From Haladaptatus paucihalophilus DX253 (GTDB lineage: Archaea; Halobacteriota; Halobacteria; Halobacteriales; Haladaptataceae), in assembly GCF_000376445.1 (NCBI RefSeq), contig NZ_AQXI01000001.1:590962-654961 (forward strand): a stretch of DNA of 64,000 bases, read 5' to 3'. Position numbers and translations under genes: made by a program. The notes under the pieces were generated by a model that did no database searches, was not told the DNA's origin, and saw nothing but the letters and a program-made list of their open reading frames with translations. Shown here piece by piece: positions 17,005-21,009 of the stretch (its first letter is position 1; the number at the start of each line of letters is the position of its first letter).

Positions 17005-18209
17005 GCACGCAGGTTCACAGCACCCTCTCGGAGGAGACCGTCCGCGAGATTTCGGGCGACCTCGACGAACCCGACTGGCTGCTGGAAACGCGTCTCGAAG
17101 CGCTCGACGCGCTTTCCGAACTCGATATGCCCGACGTCATCCGGACGCCGGGACGCGATTGGACGAACCTCGACGCACTCGATTACGAGAGCTTCGTCGA
17201 CCCGCTGTCGGCGGCCGAGGAGAAAGAGCGCGTCGAACCCGAGGGCGTCTCCGTCCTCTCGCTGTCCGACGCGTTGGACGAACACGAGGAAATCGTCGAG
17301 GAGTACTTCGGCTCGGTCATCGACCCGCAGGAGAACTACCTGACGGCGCTGTCGGCGGCGCTGTTCACGTCCGGCACCCTCGTCTACGTCCCCGAGGGCG
17401 TCGACGCGGAGGACGTGACGATTCGGACGACGATGCAGAGCCAGTCGCTCTTCAACTACACGCTCGTCGTCACCGAGAAATCGAGTTCGGTGACGATTCT
17501 GGAGCGCCAGGAGAGCGAGGAACTGGACGGCGAACGCTACTACAGCGGGCTCGTCGAAATCGCGGCCGGCGAGAACAGCCACGTCCAGTACGGCTCCCTG
17601 CAGGACGTCGACGAGGAGACCTACACCTACACGCTGAAGCGCGGCACCGCCGCCGACCACGCCACCGTCAACTGGGTCGAGGGCAACATCGGCTCGCGGC
17701 TCACCAAGTCCTCCGTCGAGACGATGCTCGACGGCGAGGGCTCGGAGACGAAGACCGTCGGCGCGTTCTTCGGCCACGACGACCAGCACTTCGACGTCGC
17801 CGCTCGCGTCTGGCACAAGAACGAGCACACGACGGCGGACCTCGTGACCCGCGGCGTGCTCGACGACGAAGCGCGCTCGGTCTACGAGGGCGTCCAGGAC
17901 GTCGGCAAGGAAGCGTGGGACACGAGTTCCTACCAGCGTGAGAACACGCTGATGCTCTCCGACCGGAGCGAGGCCGACGCGTCGCCGAAGCTCATCATCA
18001 ACAACCACGACACCGAAGCCAGCCACTCCGCGACGGTCGGACAGGTCGACGAGGAAGACCTGTTCTACATGACTTCGCGCGGCGTGCCGGACGAACTGGC
18101 CAAGAACATGCTCGTGGAAGGGTTCTTCGTCCCCGTCTTGGACGAAGTGGAAGTCGAGGAACTCCGCGAGGACCTCGACGCGAAGATCGTCGAGCGCCTC
18201 GACTACTGA
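17001..18209 (+). CDS. sufD: Fe-S cluster assembly protein SufD
   Basis: A 402-residue SufB paralogue that forms the heterodimeric scaffold and helps iron entry. It has the shared beta-helix core (LVYVPEGVDAEDVTIRTT, VTILERQESEE) and the C-terminal family block HSATVGQVDEEDLFYMTSRG, where the His is conserved in SufD. Start ATG overlaps the sufB stop by 4 bases. The next gene (ferritin-like) follows after 72 bases that include a short TTAAG promoter-like patch, so it may be partly separate. Confidence 0.94.
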   Translation: MSTQVHSTLSEETVREISGDLDEPDWLLETRLEALDALSELDMPDVIRTPGRDWTNLDALDYESFVDPLSAAEEKERVEPEGVSVLSLSDALDEHEEIVEEYFGSVIDPQENYLTALSAALFTSGTLVYVPEGVDAEDVTIRTTMQSQSLFNYTLVVTEKSSSVTILERQESEELDGERYYSGLVEIAAGENSHVQYGSLQDVDEETYTYTLKRGTAADHATVNWVEGNIGSRLTKSSVETMLDGEGSETKTVGAFFGHDDQHFDVAARVWHKNEHTTADLVTRGVLDDEARSVYEGVQDVGKEAWDTSSYQRENTLMLSDRSEADASPKLIINNHDTEASHSATVGQVDEEDLFYMTSRGVPDELAKNMLVEGFFVPVLDEVEVEELREDLDAKIVERLDY

Positions 18210-18281
18210 CCTCTCCAGTCCGTTCTTTTTCGCGCGGTCACATCAGGGAGTGTTAAGTTTCCCCACCCCTTTTCCACAGCC

Positions 18282-18782
18282 ATGAGTGTGAGTCAGCGCG
18301 TCTCGTCGGACCGCCAACTCGCGCGCTTGCTCCAAATCGGCGTCGTATTGGAGGAAGTCGTCGAGGCACGGGCCGCGCGCCATTTCGAAACCCTCCCCTC
18401 CGAAGAGCAAAACGAACTCCACGAGGACGTTCGTGACCTGCTCGACGAGGCACGCGAGGAGTCCGCCGAACACCGGGAACGTCTCGAATCGCTCATCGAC
18501 GAACTCGATGCCGAGACGATTCCGTTCGAGGAAATCGAGCTACTGGTGGGCGAGCAGTACGCCCAAACGGCCCCGGACGACTTCGACGGCGTACTCTACG
18601 ACCAACTGCACGGCGAGGAGACGGCGTACAAGTTTTACGACGACCTCATCGTCGCCGTCGAGGCGAGCGATACCGAGTTCGGCGTCGAGCGCGAGCGGTT
18701 GCTCGAAACGCTCTCCGCGATTCGAGCGGAGGAAGCGGCGGGCGTCGAAGAAGTCGCGGACCTGATGGAGGCCAGCAAATGA
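18282..18782 (+). CDS. Ferritin-like / rubrerythrin-like four-helix protein
   Basis: A 166-residue, almost entirely helical acidic protein. The helices starting at residues 10, 40, 85 and 120 suggest a four-helix bundle. An ESAEHRERL motif gives an ExxH-like pair and a GEETAYKFYDDL helix offers another Glu, as in diiron ferritin-like domains. The expected second ExxH is not evident (AEEAAGVEEV lacks the His), so the diiron site may be incomplete or different. Its stop overlaps by 4 bases the start of the SirR-type regulator, which supports an iron-related role downstream of suf. Confidence 0.65.
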   Translation: MSVSQRVSSDRQLARLLQIGVVLEEVVEARAARHFETLPSEEQNELHEDVRDLLDEAREESAEHRERLESLIDELDAETIPFEEIELLVGEQYAQTAPDDFDGVLYDQLHGEETAYKFYDDLIVAVEASDTEFGVERERLLETLSAIRAEEAAGVEEVADLMEASK

Positions 18783-19207
18783 ACACAGCAGATCAATACC
18801 TGAAAGCGATCTACCTCGTCCAGCGAATCAATGACGGCCCGGCGGCGACCGGTGCCCTCGCGGACCGGCTCGGCGTGAGTCCCGCCAGCGTCAACGAGAT
18901 GGTCGGCAAGCTCCAAGAGCGCGGGCTGGTCGAACACGAGAAATATCGCGGCGCGACCCTCACTGAGGAGGGCGAAACGCGTGCCAGCGACGCCCTTCAG
19001 ACCTACTGTATCCTGGAGCGCTTCCTCGCCAACGTCCTCGAAGTGGACGACTTCCGAACCGAGGCGAAACAGCTCGAAAGCGTCATCGACGAGACGGTCG
19101 CGGACCGACTCGACACCATCATCGACCGCGAGCCACAGTGTCCGGACTGCTTCTACGCCGACGAGGACATGTGTGAGCATCTGGTCGAAGACGGATTCGC
19201 GGACTGA
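18779..19207 (+). CDS. Metal-dependent transcriptional regulator, DtxR/SirR family
   Basis: A 142-residue regulator with an N-terminal winged HTH (TADQYLKAIYLVQRI, then LGVSPASVNEMVGKLQERGLV) and the DtxR dimerisation/metal domain (ILERFLANVLEVD). It lacks a C-terminal SH3-like FeoA domain. The tail carries a CPDC...C.H cluster (PQCPDCFYADEDMCEHL) that could bind metal. Haloarchaeal relatives repress iron genes when metal is sufficient. It sits in the same run as sufCBD and the ferritin-like gene, and the operator at 14643 is of the type these proteins bind, so auto-regulated control of the run is inferred. Confidence 0.85.
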   Translation: MNTADQYLKAIYLVQRINDGPAATGALADRLGVSPASVNEMVGKLQERGLVEHEKYRGATLTEEGETRASDALQTYCILERFLANVLEVDDFRTEAKQLESVIDETVADRLDTIIDREPQCPDCFYADEDMCEHLVEDGFAD

Positions 19208-19320
19208 GCGCAGGCTATCGAATTTCACGACGAAGCGCATGCGTTACGTTCAAGTAGCCACCCGAATTACGTGACGACGTAGCCTTCATACGAGAGGGCA
19301 ACTACGCTCTGCAGTCCCGG

Positions 19321-19484
19321 GGTGTCTCGTCGAACGAAGTGAGACGAGGCTCGGAAGCCGACACATCGGCTTCCGGTGGTGAGCAGTTTCTTCGAAACTG
19401 CGAATCACACGGGATGAGCAGTCCCGTGGTGGTGAGCAAATCCATCGGATTTGCGAGGTACGCGGGACGACGAGCGAAACGAGG
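19321..19484 (+). repeat. Tandem hairpin repeats in front of tRNA-Gln
   Basis: A non-coding tract with several perfect stem-loops: 19353-19374 (9-bp stem, CACA loop), 19383-19401 (8-bp stem, TTC loop), 19408-19428 (7-bp stem), and 19436-19454 (8-bp stem, ATC loop). The units at about 19373-19414 and 19422-19467 share the frame TCC(C)GTGGTGAGCA - arm - nTC - arm - TGCGA...ACnCGGGA. Their arms differ but remain complementary (GTTTC/GAAAC versus AATCC/GGATT). The last unit's GGGAC can also pair with the tRNA's own GTCCC. No reading frame of note is present. Confidence 0.7.
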
Positions 19485-19586
19485 AGTCCCGTGGTGTAGC
19501 GGCCAATCATAATGGCCTTTGGACGTGACTGGTGTTCCAGTTACGGAAGACAGCCATTGACGGCGGTTCGAATCCGCCCGGGACTA
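19485..19586 (+). tRNA. tRNA-Gln (UUG anticodon) with intron
   Basis: It folds as a standard cloverleaf: acceptor AGTCCCG/CGGGACT with discriminator A, D-stem GTG/CAT, anticodon stem ATGGC/GCCAT with loop CTTTGGA (anticodon TTG), 4-base variable loop, T-stem GGCGG/CCGCC with loop TTCGAAT. The mature length is 73 after removing a 29-base intron at 19523-19551. All stems pair fully apart from one G-T in the D-stem. CCA is not encoded. It is preceded directly by the hairpin repeats. Confidence 0.92.
19523..19551 (+). other. Archaeal tRNA intron with canonical bulge-helix-bulge
   Basis: Exon 1 ends ...CTTTGG and exon 2 begins AGCCAT. Within the precursor, CTTT pairs with GAAG (4-bp central helix). 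The 3-base bulges GGA and ACA flank it, and the intron itself forms a 9-bp hairpin CGTGACTGG/CCAGTTACG with a TGTT loop. Cuts after the second base of each bulge give the splice sites listed, at the canonical position after nucleotide 37. The sequence shows this directly. Confidence 0.88.
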
Positions 19587-19786
19587 TAACATCCAGCGTT
19601 CTAGTTTTGATAGCGATATGAGTGGTCACTCGTAGTCTACGAACCGATTATAGAAGGTTCTATTTTTGAGGGCTCGAATAATTGTGAAACCATCTGACCA
19701 AGCTCCAAAAACCGACGTTACTGCCGACTACCATCGAACCCTCTCGAATCGACTCACAAAAAACCGCAACAATCCGCAAAACGTTC

Positions 19787-20410
19787 TCACTTCGAACTGT
19801 ACTGTATCGTTCCGGTCCACTTGCCGTAGATGTCGTCGGACTGCTTGTCCGCGTCGAGGAGGTAGACCGTGATGTTAAGCGTGCCGTCGTTGAACTGGTC
19901 GAAGGCACCCTGTTCGATTTCGACGGTGTAGGTTCCCGGGTCGTGCTGGAAGCGGACGTTGGTCCGGCCGACGTTTTTACCGTTGATTTGGACGAGGAAG
20001 TACGGGTCGCCGTCCACGAGCGGTTCGGGGTCGACGTTGGGGAGGCTGGTGTTCGCGGTGACTTCGACGTTGAAGTTGGAGTAGCCGTTGCCGCTCTTGG
20101 CTTTCACCTTGTCGACGAGCGTGACGCTCTTCATGCGATTCTCCTGATTGGTGTCCCGCTTGTCGTCGAGCGGGGTGTGCGGTTCTTTGGGCGGTGACCA
20201 CGACTCCACCGTGGTGGTGGTCGTGGTTGTGGTGGTCGTCGCGTCCGTCGTCGTCGCGCCACTCGCTGTCGTCGCCGTGGACGCACTCGTCGATGTCGGT
20301 GCGTCCGTCGTGGTGGTGGTGGTCGTCGTATCGGACCCGCCGAGTCCGGCGCAACCGGCGAGGAGGACGGCGAGCACGAGGACGACCGCTGTAGATCGAT
20401 GACGATTCAT
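19787..20410 (-). CDS. Secreted lipoprotein with Thr-rich linker
   Basis: A 207-residue exported protein. The signal sequence MNRHRSTAVVLVLAVLLAGC ends in an LAGC lipobox, followed by a roughly 50-residue Thr/Ala/Ser linker that is probably O-glycosylated and spans the surface layer. The C-terminal 110 residues look beta-rich (YFLVQINGKNVG, GTYTVEIEQGAF, GTLNITVYLLD), like a small immunoglobulin-type sandwich. The start at 20410 is chosen because it directly precedes the basic n-region; upstream codons lack features. Function unknown. It faces the tRNA convergently, with about 200 bases of AT-richer spacer between. Confidence 0.75.
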   Translation of the reverse strand: MNRHRSTAVVLVLAVLLAGCAGLGGSDTTTTTTTTDAPTSTSASTATTASGATTTDATTTTTTTTTTVESWSPPKEPHTPLDDKRDTNQENRMKSVTLVDKVKAKSGNGYSNFNVEVTANTSLPNVDPEPLVDGDPYFLVQINGKNVGRTNVRFQHDPGTYTVEIEQGAFDQFNDGTLNITVYLLDADKQSDDIYGKWTGTIQYSSK

Positions 20411-20552
20411 AGTTGTGTGTGTGTGACTATTTTCGTGAGAGCCCAAAAATCCTTTTACCGGTTTCAAGACCCTATTTCCTCGTATCAAGCCGTCCCCCAT
20501 TGAGGGTAACGTGGGAATACCTCCGAGAGGGGTAAGGGCAGCACGGACGTGT

Positions 20553-20813
20553 TCAATCGCACTCTAGCGATTCTTCGATTTCCGCGAGGACGGTACGAAT
20601 GCGCCGATTACTCCGCGCGTACGAAATCCAACCTCCGAGAAAGAAGAGCATACCGACGACGATGGCGATGGTACCGAGTTCGGTCGCAAAATCCTTGTCG
20701 CTGCAAAAGCCGACGATGACGGTCCCGAAGGTGAACATGGAGATGCCCGTTCTGATATGTGCCAGTATCGTCCGTTCGCGGGCGAGATGTGTCTGTTCTC
20801 GCGCGAGCCGCAT
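20553..20813 (-). CDS. DUF202 (YidH-type) membrane protein
   Basis: An 86-residue membrane protein with the family signature LARERTILAHIRTGISMFTFG and two further hydrophobic spans (ATELGTIAIVVGMLFFLGGW and the preceding helix), giving about three membrane segments. The ATG at 20813 is chosen; a GTG one codon upstream is also in frame. The function of DUF202 proteins is unsettled. It is a single gene between a lipoprotein and a small hypothetical on the other strand. Confidence 0.78.
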   Translation of the reverse strand: MRLAREQTHLARERTILAHIRTGISMFTFGTVIVGFCSDKDFATELGTIAIVVGMLFFLGGWISYARSNRRIRTVLAEIEESLECD

Positions 20814-21009
20814 CACCGCCCCGATTGGAGCTTCGAGTCGTCTGCTGTCATATCGCTTTCCTTGGACTCGAACGACAATACGTCGATTGGCAATGAGACG
20901 TTCTGAGGCGTCGCCGACTATCGAGAAGCGTCCGCTGTACGTTCTCAGTCGGCGACAAATAGAAACAAGACATATATCCTCGCGCTACTTCTGCAATATC
21001 TACCATCAA

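Follow-up and report, generated by a model that had tools for sequence, protein, structure and literature searches.

The locus studied here raises the question of why a haloarchaeal tRNA gene should be preceded by a row of hairpins that repeat, forwards and backwards, the beginning of the gene itself. In the 64,000-nt stretch of the Haladaptatus paucihalophilus DX253 genome that was analysed as a whole (the window), an intron-bearing tRNA-Gln(UUG) gene lies at 19485-19586 on the forward strand, as do all the window features given below (Rfam RF00005, 50 bits, E = 4.5e-9, with a 32-nt insertion). Its acceptor strands are at 19485-19491 and 19579-19585, and two tandem units are found directly 5' of the gene. 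ARAGORN with default settings overlooks this tRNA because of its intron, while in relatives the orthologous gene is called as tRNA-Gln ttg with intron i(39,29). An Rfam scan of positions 18000-21000 gave no match to families other than RF00005 at E values up to 1. Each unit consists of a copy of the tRNA's own first ~9 nt (X), a hairpin of the frame GTGAGC-arm-NNN-arm'-GCGA with tandem G.A mismatches at its flanks, the reverse complement of the acceptor 5' strand (X') and a linker that leads to the next unit or to the tRNA.

The sequence-only reading of this region had recognized two units sharing the frame GTGGTGAGC-arm-NNN-arm'-GCGA with differing, fully paired arms, and the compensatory arms are borne out here (GCAGTTTC/GAAACTGC at 19383-19401, GCAAATCC/GGATTTGC at 19436-19454). 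The hairpin array that it described is real but larger than claimed, spanning ~19313 to 19484 with stable hairpins throughout, and the copy of the tRNA's 5' end that opens each unit had been overlooked. The outer copy, X1 (AGTCCCGGG, 19313-19321), was identified by direct reading and repeat analysis (families D2/D4), and is followed by two additional hairpins: hairpin A (CTCGTC-GA-AC-GAA-GT-GA-GACGAG, 19326-19348), of the tandem G.A type from its sequence and folding, and hairpin B (CGGAAGCCGA/TCGGCTTCCG, 19352-19375), an inverted repeat that also folds. The hairpins of unit 1 (GTGGTGA-GCAGTTTC-TTC-GAAACTGC-GA-ATCA, 19376-19407) and unit 2 (GTGGTGA-GCAAATCC-ATC-GGATTTGC-GA-GGTA, 19429-19460) were delimited by sequence, repeats, folding and the covariance model described below, which matches them at G000:C1:610331-610374 (E 5.1e-9) and G000:C1:610384-610427 (E 2e-12), respectively. 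Between them lie the anti-copy X'1 (CACGGGAT, 19408-19415, from sequence and folding), which is complementary to both X1 and the downstream X2, so that either pairing is possible, and X2 itself (AGTCCCGTG, 19420-19428, read directly), whose identity with the tRNA extends to 19431 (AGTCCCGTGGTG at both 19420-19431 and 19485-19496). Unit 2 ends in the anti-copy X'2 (CGCGGGAC, 19461-19468, from folding), complementary to the 5' acceptor strand of the tRNA, and the linker GACGAGCGAAACGAGG (19469-19484, read directly). The GGGAC-type unit ends earlier described as able to pair with the tRNA are thus real, being located at 19408-19415 and 19461-19468. The predicted fold of 19312-19487 has an energy of -87 kcal/mol (z = -6.0), and none of 200 dinucleotide shuffles was equally stable. 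At another locus (L048), additional hairpins are nested inside hairpin A of the tRNA-Gln leader, in its loop region.

The flanks of the hairpins change with the tRNA that they precede. BLAST of the window stretch against its own genome returned short matches only, the two informative ones being tRNA-Gly leaders, and a plasmid search with the same stretch gave no match. The hairpin GGTGGTGAGCAAATCCNNNGGATTTGCGA also precedes both tRNA-Gly genes, (UCC) and (CCC), of this genome, where its flanks GCACCGG..CGGTGC correspond to the tRNA-Gly acceptor, the Gln flanks being AGTCCCG..CGGGAC. Upstream of 3 of the 47 tRNA genes of the genome, the tRNA start recurs as an exact 9-mer, compared to 2 of 2154 swapped tRNA/leader pairs. 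A looser copy/anti-copy test has a high background in the GC-rich Gly leaders (89/110 positive vs. 17.7% with shuffled acceptors), and therefore we have relied mainly on the exact 9-mers with the swapped pairs as control; of the 29 Gln leaders, 18 do not pass this loose test, some of them bearing diverged units. When contigs of GTDB genomes were scanned with the unit pattern, 68 matches in 65 stretches were retrieved. Three were bacterial and had no tRNA, and 62 of the 65 archaeal ones had a tRNA-Gly, -Gln or -Thr(CGU) gene downstream, counting two that the program called Glu and that start with the Gln acceptor. The remaining three archaeal matches are L142, where the tRNA runs into N, L167, and one of two matches at L166, where a tRNA-Ile called by the program overlies the unit and was treated as spurious. 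Depending on the tRNA, X/X' reads GCGCCG/CGGCGC, GCGGCG/CGCCGC, GCACCG/CGGTGC or GTCCCGTG/CACGGGAC, with single-base departures from the tRNA-matched flanks in a minority of the archaeal matches. A tRNA-by-tRNA survey of three genomes also revealed self-copies with a hairpin in front of Gly(GCC), Glu(CUC) and Glu(UUC).

Among relatives, the unit is precisely present or absent at one identical spot, and arrays of one to five tandem units were seen at their tRNA genes. In a Haloferax-like genus (g51), whose tRNA-Gly(CCC) has the acceptor GCGCCGA, the copies in front of the gene have the sequence GCGCCGATG, and there may be several of them in tandem. The PCNA of one genome of this genus (G299) matches PDB 3hi8/3ifv over its full length with two differing residues; these entries are from H. 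volcanii, so that the genus is presumably Haloferax. Up to about five tandem units precede tRNA-Gly(CCC) at L166 and L382-L398, and at L166 one anti-copy matches the altered copy of the following unit (CGATGC then GCATCG).

A covariance model was built from 107 units and at E <= 0.01 it found matches in 202 of 293 Halobacteriales genomes, representing 63 of 87 genera. The other 91 genomes had no match, and since the unit is missing at a given tRNA in many genomes it is dispensable. In a sample of 294 genomes of the phylum, matches appeared in 34, the sole one from another order being G459 (E = 0.008). All four matches in the H. paucihalophilus genome are upstream of tRNA genes, and so are 32 of the 34 loci derived from strong matches, in front of tRNA-Gly or tRNA-Thr; of the other two, one has a tRNA running into N and one was missed by the motif search. 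It is evident that these copy/anti-copy modules are real, order-wide and tied to tRNA genes; the unit type is found throughout the Halobacteriales, mostly at tRNA-Gly(UCC/CCC) and tRNA-Gln(UUG). The genome-wide search and the covariance model across Halobacteria had been proposed as checks in the sequence-only reading, and its hairpin units came through both, with other copies present in the genome and conservation in relatives. As to the explanations it offered (a structured RNA, a processing element or a small mobile repeat), a freely dispersed hairpin family is rejected for the scored unit, as strong matches to the unit model sit at tRNAs, and none of the three covers the copy/anti-copy architecture. 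A literature search on the hairpin sequence or on haloarchaeal palindromic repeats gave no lead.

Related tandem-G.A hairpins also exist away from the scored units. The core of a second such hairpin, GAACGNAGTGA, has 48 copies in the H. paucihalophilus genome compared to 7 for the reversed pattern (e.g., C1:319730, 974287, and 1281970), several of them just downstream of tRNA genes. Two other genomes contain arrays (L050-L057 in G021, L058-L064 in G024) whose tandem-G.A hairpins differ in their arms and have conserved linkers, with no tRNA noticed in the stretches inspected.

Selection for the structure, suggested earlier from the two window units, is supported by the enlarged set. In an ungapped 44-nt alignment of 107 units, 96.8% of the pair cells are standard and 11 of 14 pairs have changed on both sides, with 238 cells changed on both sides against a shuffled mean of 75 (reached by 0/500 shuffles) and 92.7% pairing in the basal helix, the X/X' stem before the tRNA; these values include many rows from stretches selected by a pattern that demands part of the stem, units collected with at most two mismatches allowed by the unit finder, and related sequences that are not independent. 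Among the arm pairs of 143 units, read on the tRNA-sense strand, there are 1096 Watson-Crick, 15 G.U, 2 A.C and 3 other pairs. The G.U excess over A.C (two-sided p 0.0023) speaks for selection on one strand, something that a mutation bias linked to transcription could mimic. The tandem G.A at the foot of the stem is retained by 140 of 153 units, and when the pattern-selected loci are left aside the figure is 71 of 81; repair by copying would erase it, and its retention therefore speaks for selection as well. A kink-turn, the tandem G.A being next to a bulge, was considered by hand and dropped, since NNNW, the strand that follows GA, is too variable for a C stem. An intron or bulge-helix-bulge reading was also set aside on visual inspection, in which no complementarity was seen between the two GGTGGT junctions of copy and tRNA.

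The pairing of unit ends with the tRNA, already proposed in the sequence-only reading, proves central to the system. Counting last units only, with two out-of-register units left out, X differs from the tRNA at 39 positions in 107 units, and X' is Watson-Crick to the tRNA at 36 of these and to X at 2. Seen from X, these departures make 14 G.U, 10 A.C, 13 other and 2 Watson-Crick combinations with X', with no G.U bias. At the 651 positions with X and tRNA identical, X' has 20 departures to G.U, 4 to A.C and 14 of other kinds. No double change of X and X' that re-forms a pair departing from the tRNA was found in the 107 last units. A fold of the linker that is flush with both X' and the tRNA strand is predicted in 47 of 96 cases from relatives, compared to 10% of shuffles; the linker of the window itself scores 0 in this test. 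As X' tracks the tRNA and linkers fold flush, X' appears to partner the tRNA strand at least as much as it does X. Altogether, the 5' hairpin and X' are likely under RNA-level constraint.

With regard to transcription, the leaders contain a promoter-like motif (NAA..CCTTA), whose end is 25-27 nt away from the tRNA in 11 of 16 Gly leaders that have no unit. In 22 unit-bearing leaders its distance to X is 25-26 nt (8 cases), 39-40 nt (7) or other (7), and its distance to the tRNA has a median of 103 nt, these being the leaders that could be assigned, with another 33 unassignable and motif-less ones skipped uncounted. We infer that this motif is the promoter. X is placed relative to it as the tRNA start would be, and thus the units are probably transcribed. 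On transcription, to which the sequence-only reading had tied its proposal, the published support comes from a relative, H. volcanii, for which a passage of a dRNA-seq study mentions an 'exceptionally long leader of 300 nt (tRNA-Gly CCC)' (PMC4983044). A passage of the same study reports no proximal start for tRNA-Gly(TCC) (PMC4983044). These two tRNA-Gly types are the ones most often unit-bearing in our data.

Folding predictions, made with 37 C parameters and leaving aside tertiary contacts, modification, transcription order and molar KCl, give X' two mutually exclusive partners. For 70 Gly pre-tRNAs, the predicted probabilities were 0.83 for X' with the tRNA and 0.89 for X with the tRNA 3' end, and the normal acceptor reached 0.05, compared to 0.96 for the tRNA alone. 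The median gap between the X.X'/acceptor state and the X'.tRNA/X.3'-end state was 3.2 kcal/mol, and when the transcript was truncated 24 nt after the tRNA start the values were 0.31 for X.X' and 0.53 for X'.tRNA. The window transcript (19312-19586) behaves in the same way in the model, with a probability of 0.88 for X'2 with the tRNA and 0.006 for X'2 with X2, and with the tRNA 3' end as the predicted partner of X1. The two exclusive pairings of X' are thus predicted to be near-isoenergetic, as a switch would require. The favoured fold leaves the tRNA unformed, so that either something in the cell must prevent it or the prediction is wrong.

From these observations, we propose that the array is made up of pre-tRNA leader modules, in which duplicated tRNA ends surround hairpins constrained as RNA, acting as a strand-exchange switch in maturation; we would give this reading a probability of roughly 0.45. 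The modules would have originated by insertion or template-switch events that duplicated the end of the tRNA gene and left the tRNA intact. They would be transcribed with the tRNA, X lying approximately at the transcript start, as the promoter-like motif and the published Haloferax data suggest, and today they would be constrained as RNA. The least certain step is the choice of X' between its own X and the tRNA 5' strand. With X' on X, the tRNA strand would be free for the acceptor stem and the precursor competent for processing, while with X' on the tRNA, X would pair with the tRNA 3' end and processing would be blocked. The leader would then work as a strand-exchange switch or as a folding guide in the maturation of these tRNAs. 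This is the function that we favour, unproven as it is, being the explanation in which X, X' and the linker all have a use, with a neutral by-product of end copying as a serious rival. Against it speak the many genomes that do without the unit at a given tRNA, the departures of X that have no G.U bias, and the lack of X-X' double changes that re-form a pair departing from the tRNA. The proposed arrangement resembles attenuator-type RNA switches, where one strand (here X') has two competing partners, one of them shared with a downstream functional part; it differs from them in that the output would be a tRNA acceptor stem instead of a terminator or ribosome site, and no ligand is known.

A stem with the tRNA's own sequence in front of a stable RNA also recalls the t-element, a tRNA-like unit cut by RNase P and tRNase Z, which here would give the tRNA a defined short leader. 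In haloarchaea, t-elements are substrates of both tRNase Z and RNase P according to published work (PMC4326828, PMC3296008), and X.X' does form an acceptor-like basal stem upstream of a tRNA. As with the t-element before the 5S rRNA of Haloferax volcanii, the case is haloarchaeal, and a stable RNA directly follows a tRNA-like stem, presumably within one transcript. However, the units have no T arm or 7-nt T loop, with 3-nt loops in 107/107 aligned units (the alignment was built from 3-nt-loop units only) and no TTCRA loop in them. Their basal stem copies the particular tRNA that follows, their anti-copy is also predicted to pair with that tRNA, and orthologues without a unit seem to mature without it. 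Identity with a t-element fails on the T loop; a role as a processing signal of this type appears improbable to us.

The 3' side of the tRNA genes has to be considered as well. Among 20 regions with mid-score matches to the model, 3 were ordinary 5' units, 12 were assigned by inspection to positions downstream of a tRNA on the opposite strand, and 5 had no tRNA. A total of 32 such mirrored units were found, in which tRNA and GTGAGC..GCGA frame are on opposite strands and the outer copy equals the tRNA 3' end; mirror units were seen downstream of tRNA-Ala, -Arg and -Gly at L452, L455, L457, L459, L461, L462, and L465-L468. In a census of the best-scoring tRNAs of each genome and of the tRNAs near them, the final 12 nt of the tRNA were present as a copy within ~250 nt downstream at 17 of 31 tRNAs in H. 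paucihalophilus, 15 of 30 in Haloarcula rara and 9 of 31 in Natrinema zhouii, compared to 1 of 31 in G459, outside the order, and at most 0.4% in swapped controls. The tRNA-Gln of the window has no such copy nearby. Most of these 3' copies are ~21 nt long, run from the T arm through the acceptor 3' strand, adjoin a T-run, and are preceded by a T-arm anti-copy (GGATTTGAA) and a hairpin core, often AGACGAGTCGCAYGCCCG...GGACCGTCT. Modules of this T-arm type were observed in the H. paucihalophilus genome at L002, L004, and L071-L110, with more in further genomes. In 69 folded 3' examples, the predicted probability of the acceptor was 0.90 with the outer copy and 0.06 with the tRNA's own end. Mismatches in the 3' anti-copies comprise 37 G.U and 5 A.C, with 26 of the 37 G.U at one end position and an interior ratio of 10:2. 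Copy, hairpin and anti-copy therefore form a general arrangement that haloarchaeal tRNA genes have on either side, with an orientation that follows the gene end, and this argues for a DNA-level origin whatever the present role.

One origin at the DNA level would be that the copies are remnants of integrated elements, att-site duplications left by tyrosine integrases. Both involve a direct copy of the tRNA end beyond the gene with the tRNA whole, and both have 5' and 3' versions. According to the literature on these enzymes, the preferred targets of archaeal integrases are tRNA 3' ends, with the 5' half as the target of pTN3-like enzymes, and part of the tRNA stays behind as a copy after integration (PMC8371274, PMC9897764). 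The copies described here are however tiny, 9-12 nt (5') or ~21 nt (3'), where one of these sources gives 40-60 bp as usual for att sites and also mentions a much shorter one, SNJ2 (PMC8371274). The anti-copy and the conserved hairpin core are foreign to att sites, the modules of only ~65-150 bp are too short for an integrase gene and carry none, and their occurrence at 29-55% of the tRNAs in the three haloarchaea is far more frequent. We consider this origin very improbable.

A weightier alternative is that only the DNA-level origin is real, with a hairpin-forming mobile cassette or replication template switching inserting repeatedly at tRNA gene ends, modules being tolerated because the tRNA stays intact and their pairing being kept by further switching instead of selection. 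The mirror-image 3' units fit it well; their frame on the opposite strand is not explained by a sense-RNA motif and counts against our leading explanation. Likewise in its favour, outer copies adjoin the promoter-like motif or the T-run as if these had been displaced from the gene, and units are gained and lost at a single spot and form tandem arrays. Template switching can moreover create and maintain RNA hairpins, including perfect ones with apparent compensatory changes from copying, as Monttinen and Loytynoja (2022, PMC8794818) describe. Compared to those hairpins, the units have a conserved tandem G.A core, a fixed place at tRNA ends and a sense-strand G.U excess. This excess (15:2 in the 5' arms, 20:4 in X', 37:5 in the 3' anti-copies), the persistence of tandem G.A inside covarying helices, which template repair should erase, and the spread over so many genera all speak against copying as the whole explanation. 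We regard it as a real possibility, tentatively to be placed below the leader modules acting as a strand-exchange switch. The broadest form of the RNA reading appears doubtful to us: order-wide cis RNA switches at both 5' and 3' ends of tRNA genes, in which copy and anti-copy of the terminus would let the pre-tRNA swap pairing partners, passing from a mature-like fold to a closed one whose acceptor is formed by the outermost copies or back, and would thereby control or check the maturation of particular tRNAs.

In a search of open-access papers, we found no report of a tRNA regulation by built-in competitors for the gene's own acceptor strands. If the RNA reading is true, the tRNA genes of a whole archaeal order bear such competitors. 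If only the DNA reading is true, haloarchaeal tRNA genes record an insertion that copies the gene end forwards and backwards and leaves the gene unbroken, and they would offer a test case for how hairpins and apparent covariation arise. Either reading may explain a loose end of Haloferax transcriptomics, the 300-nt leader of tRNA-Gly(CCC).
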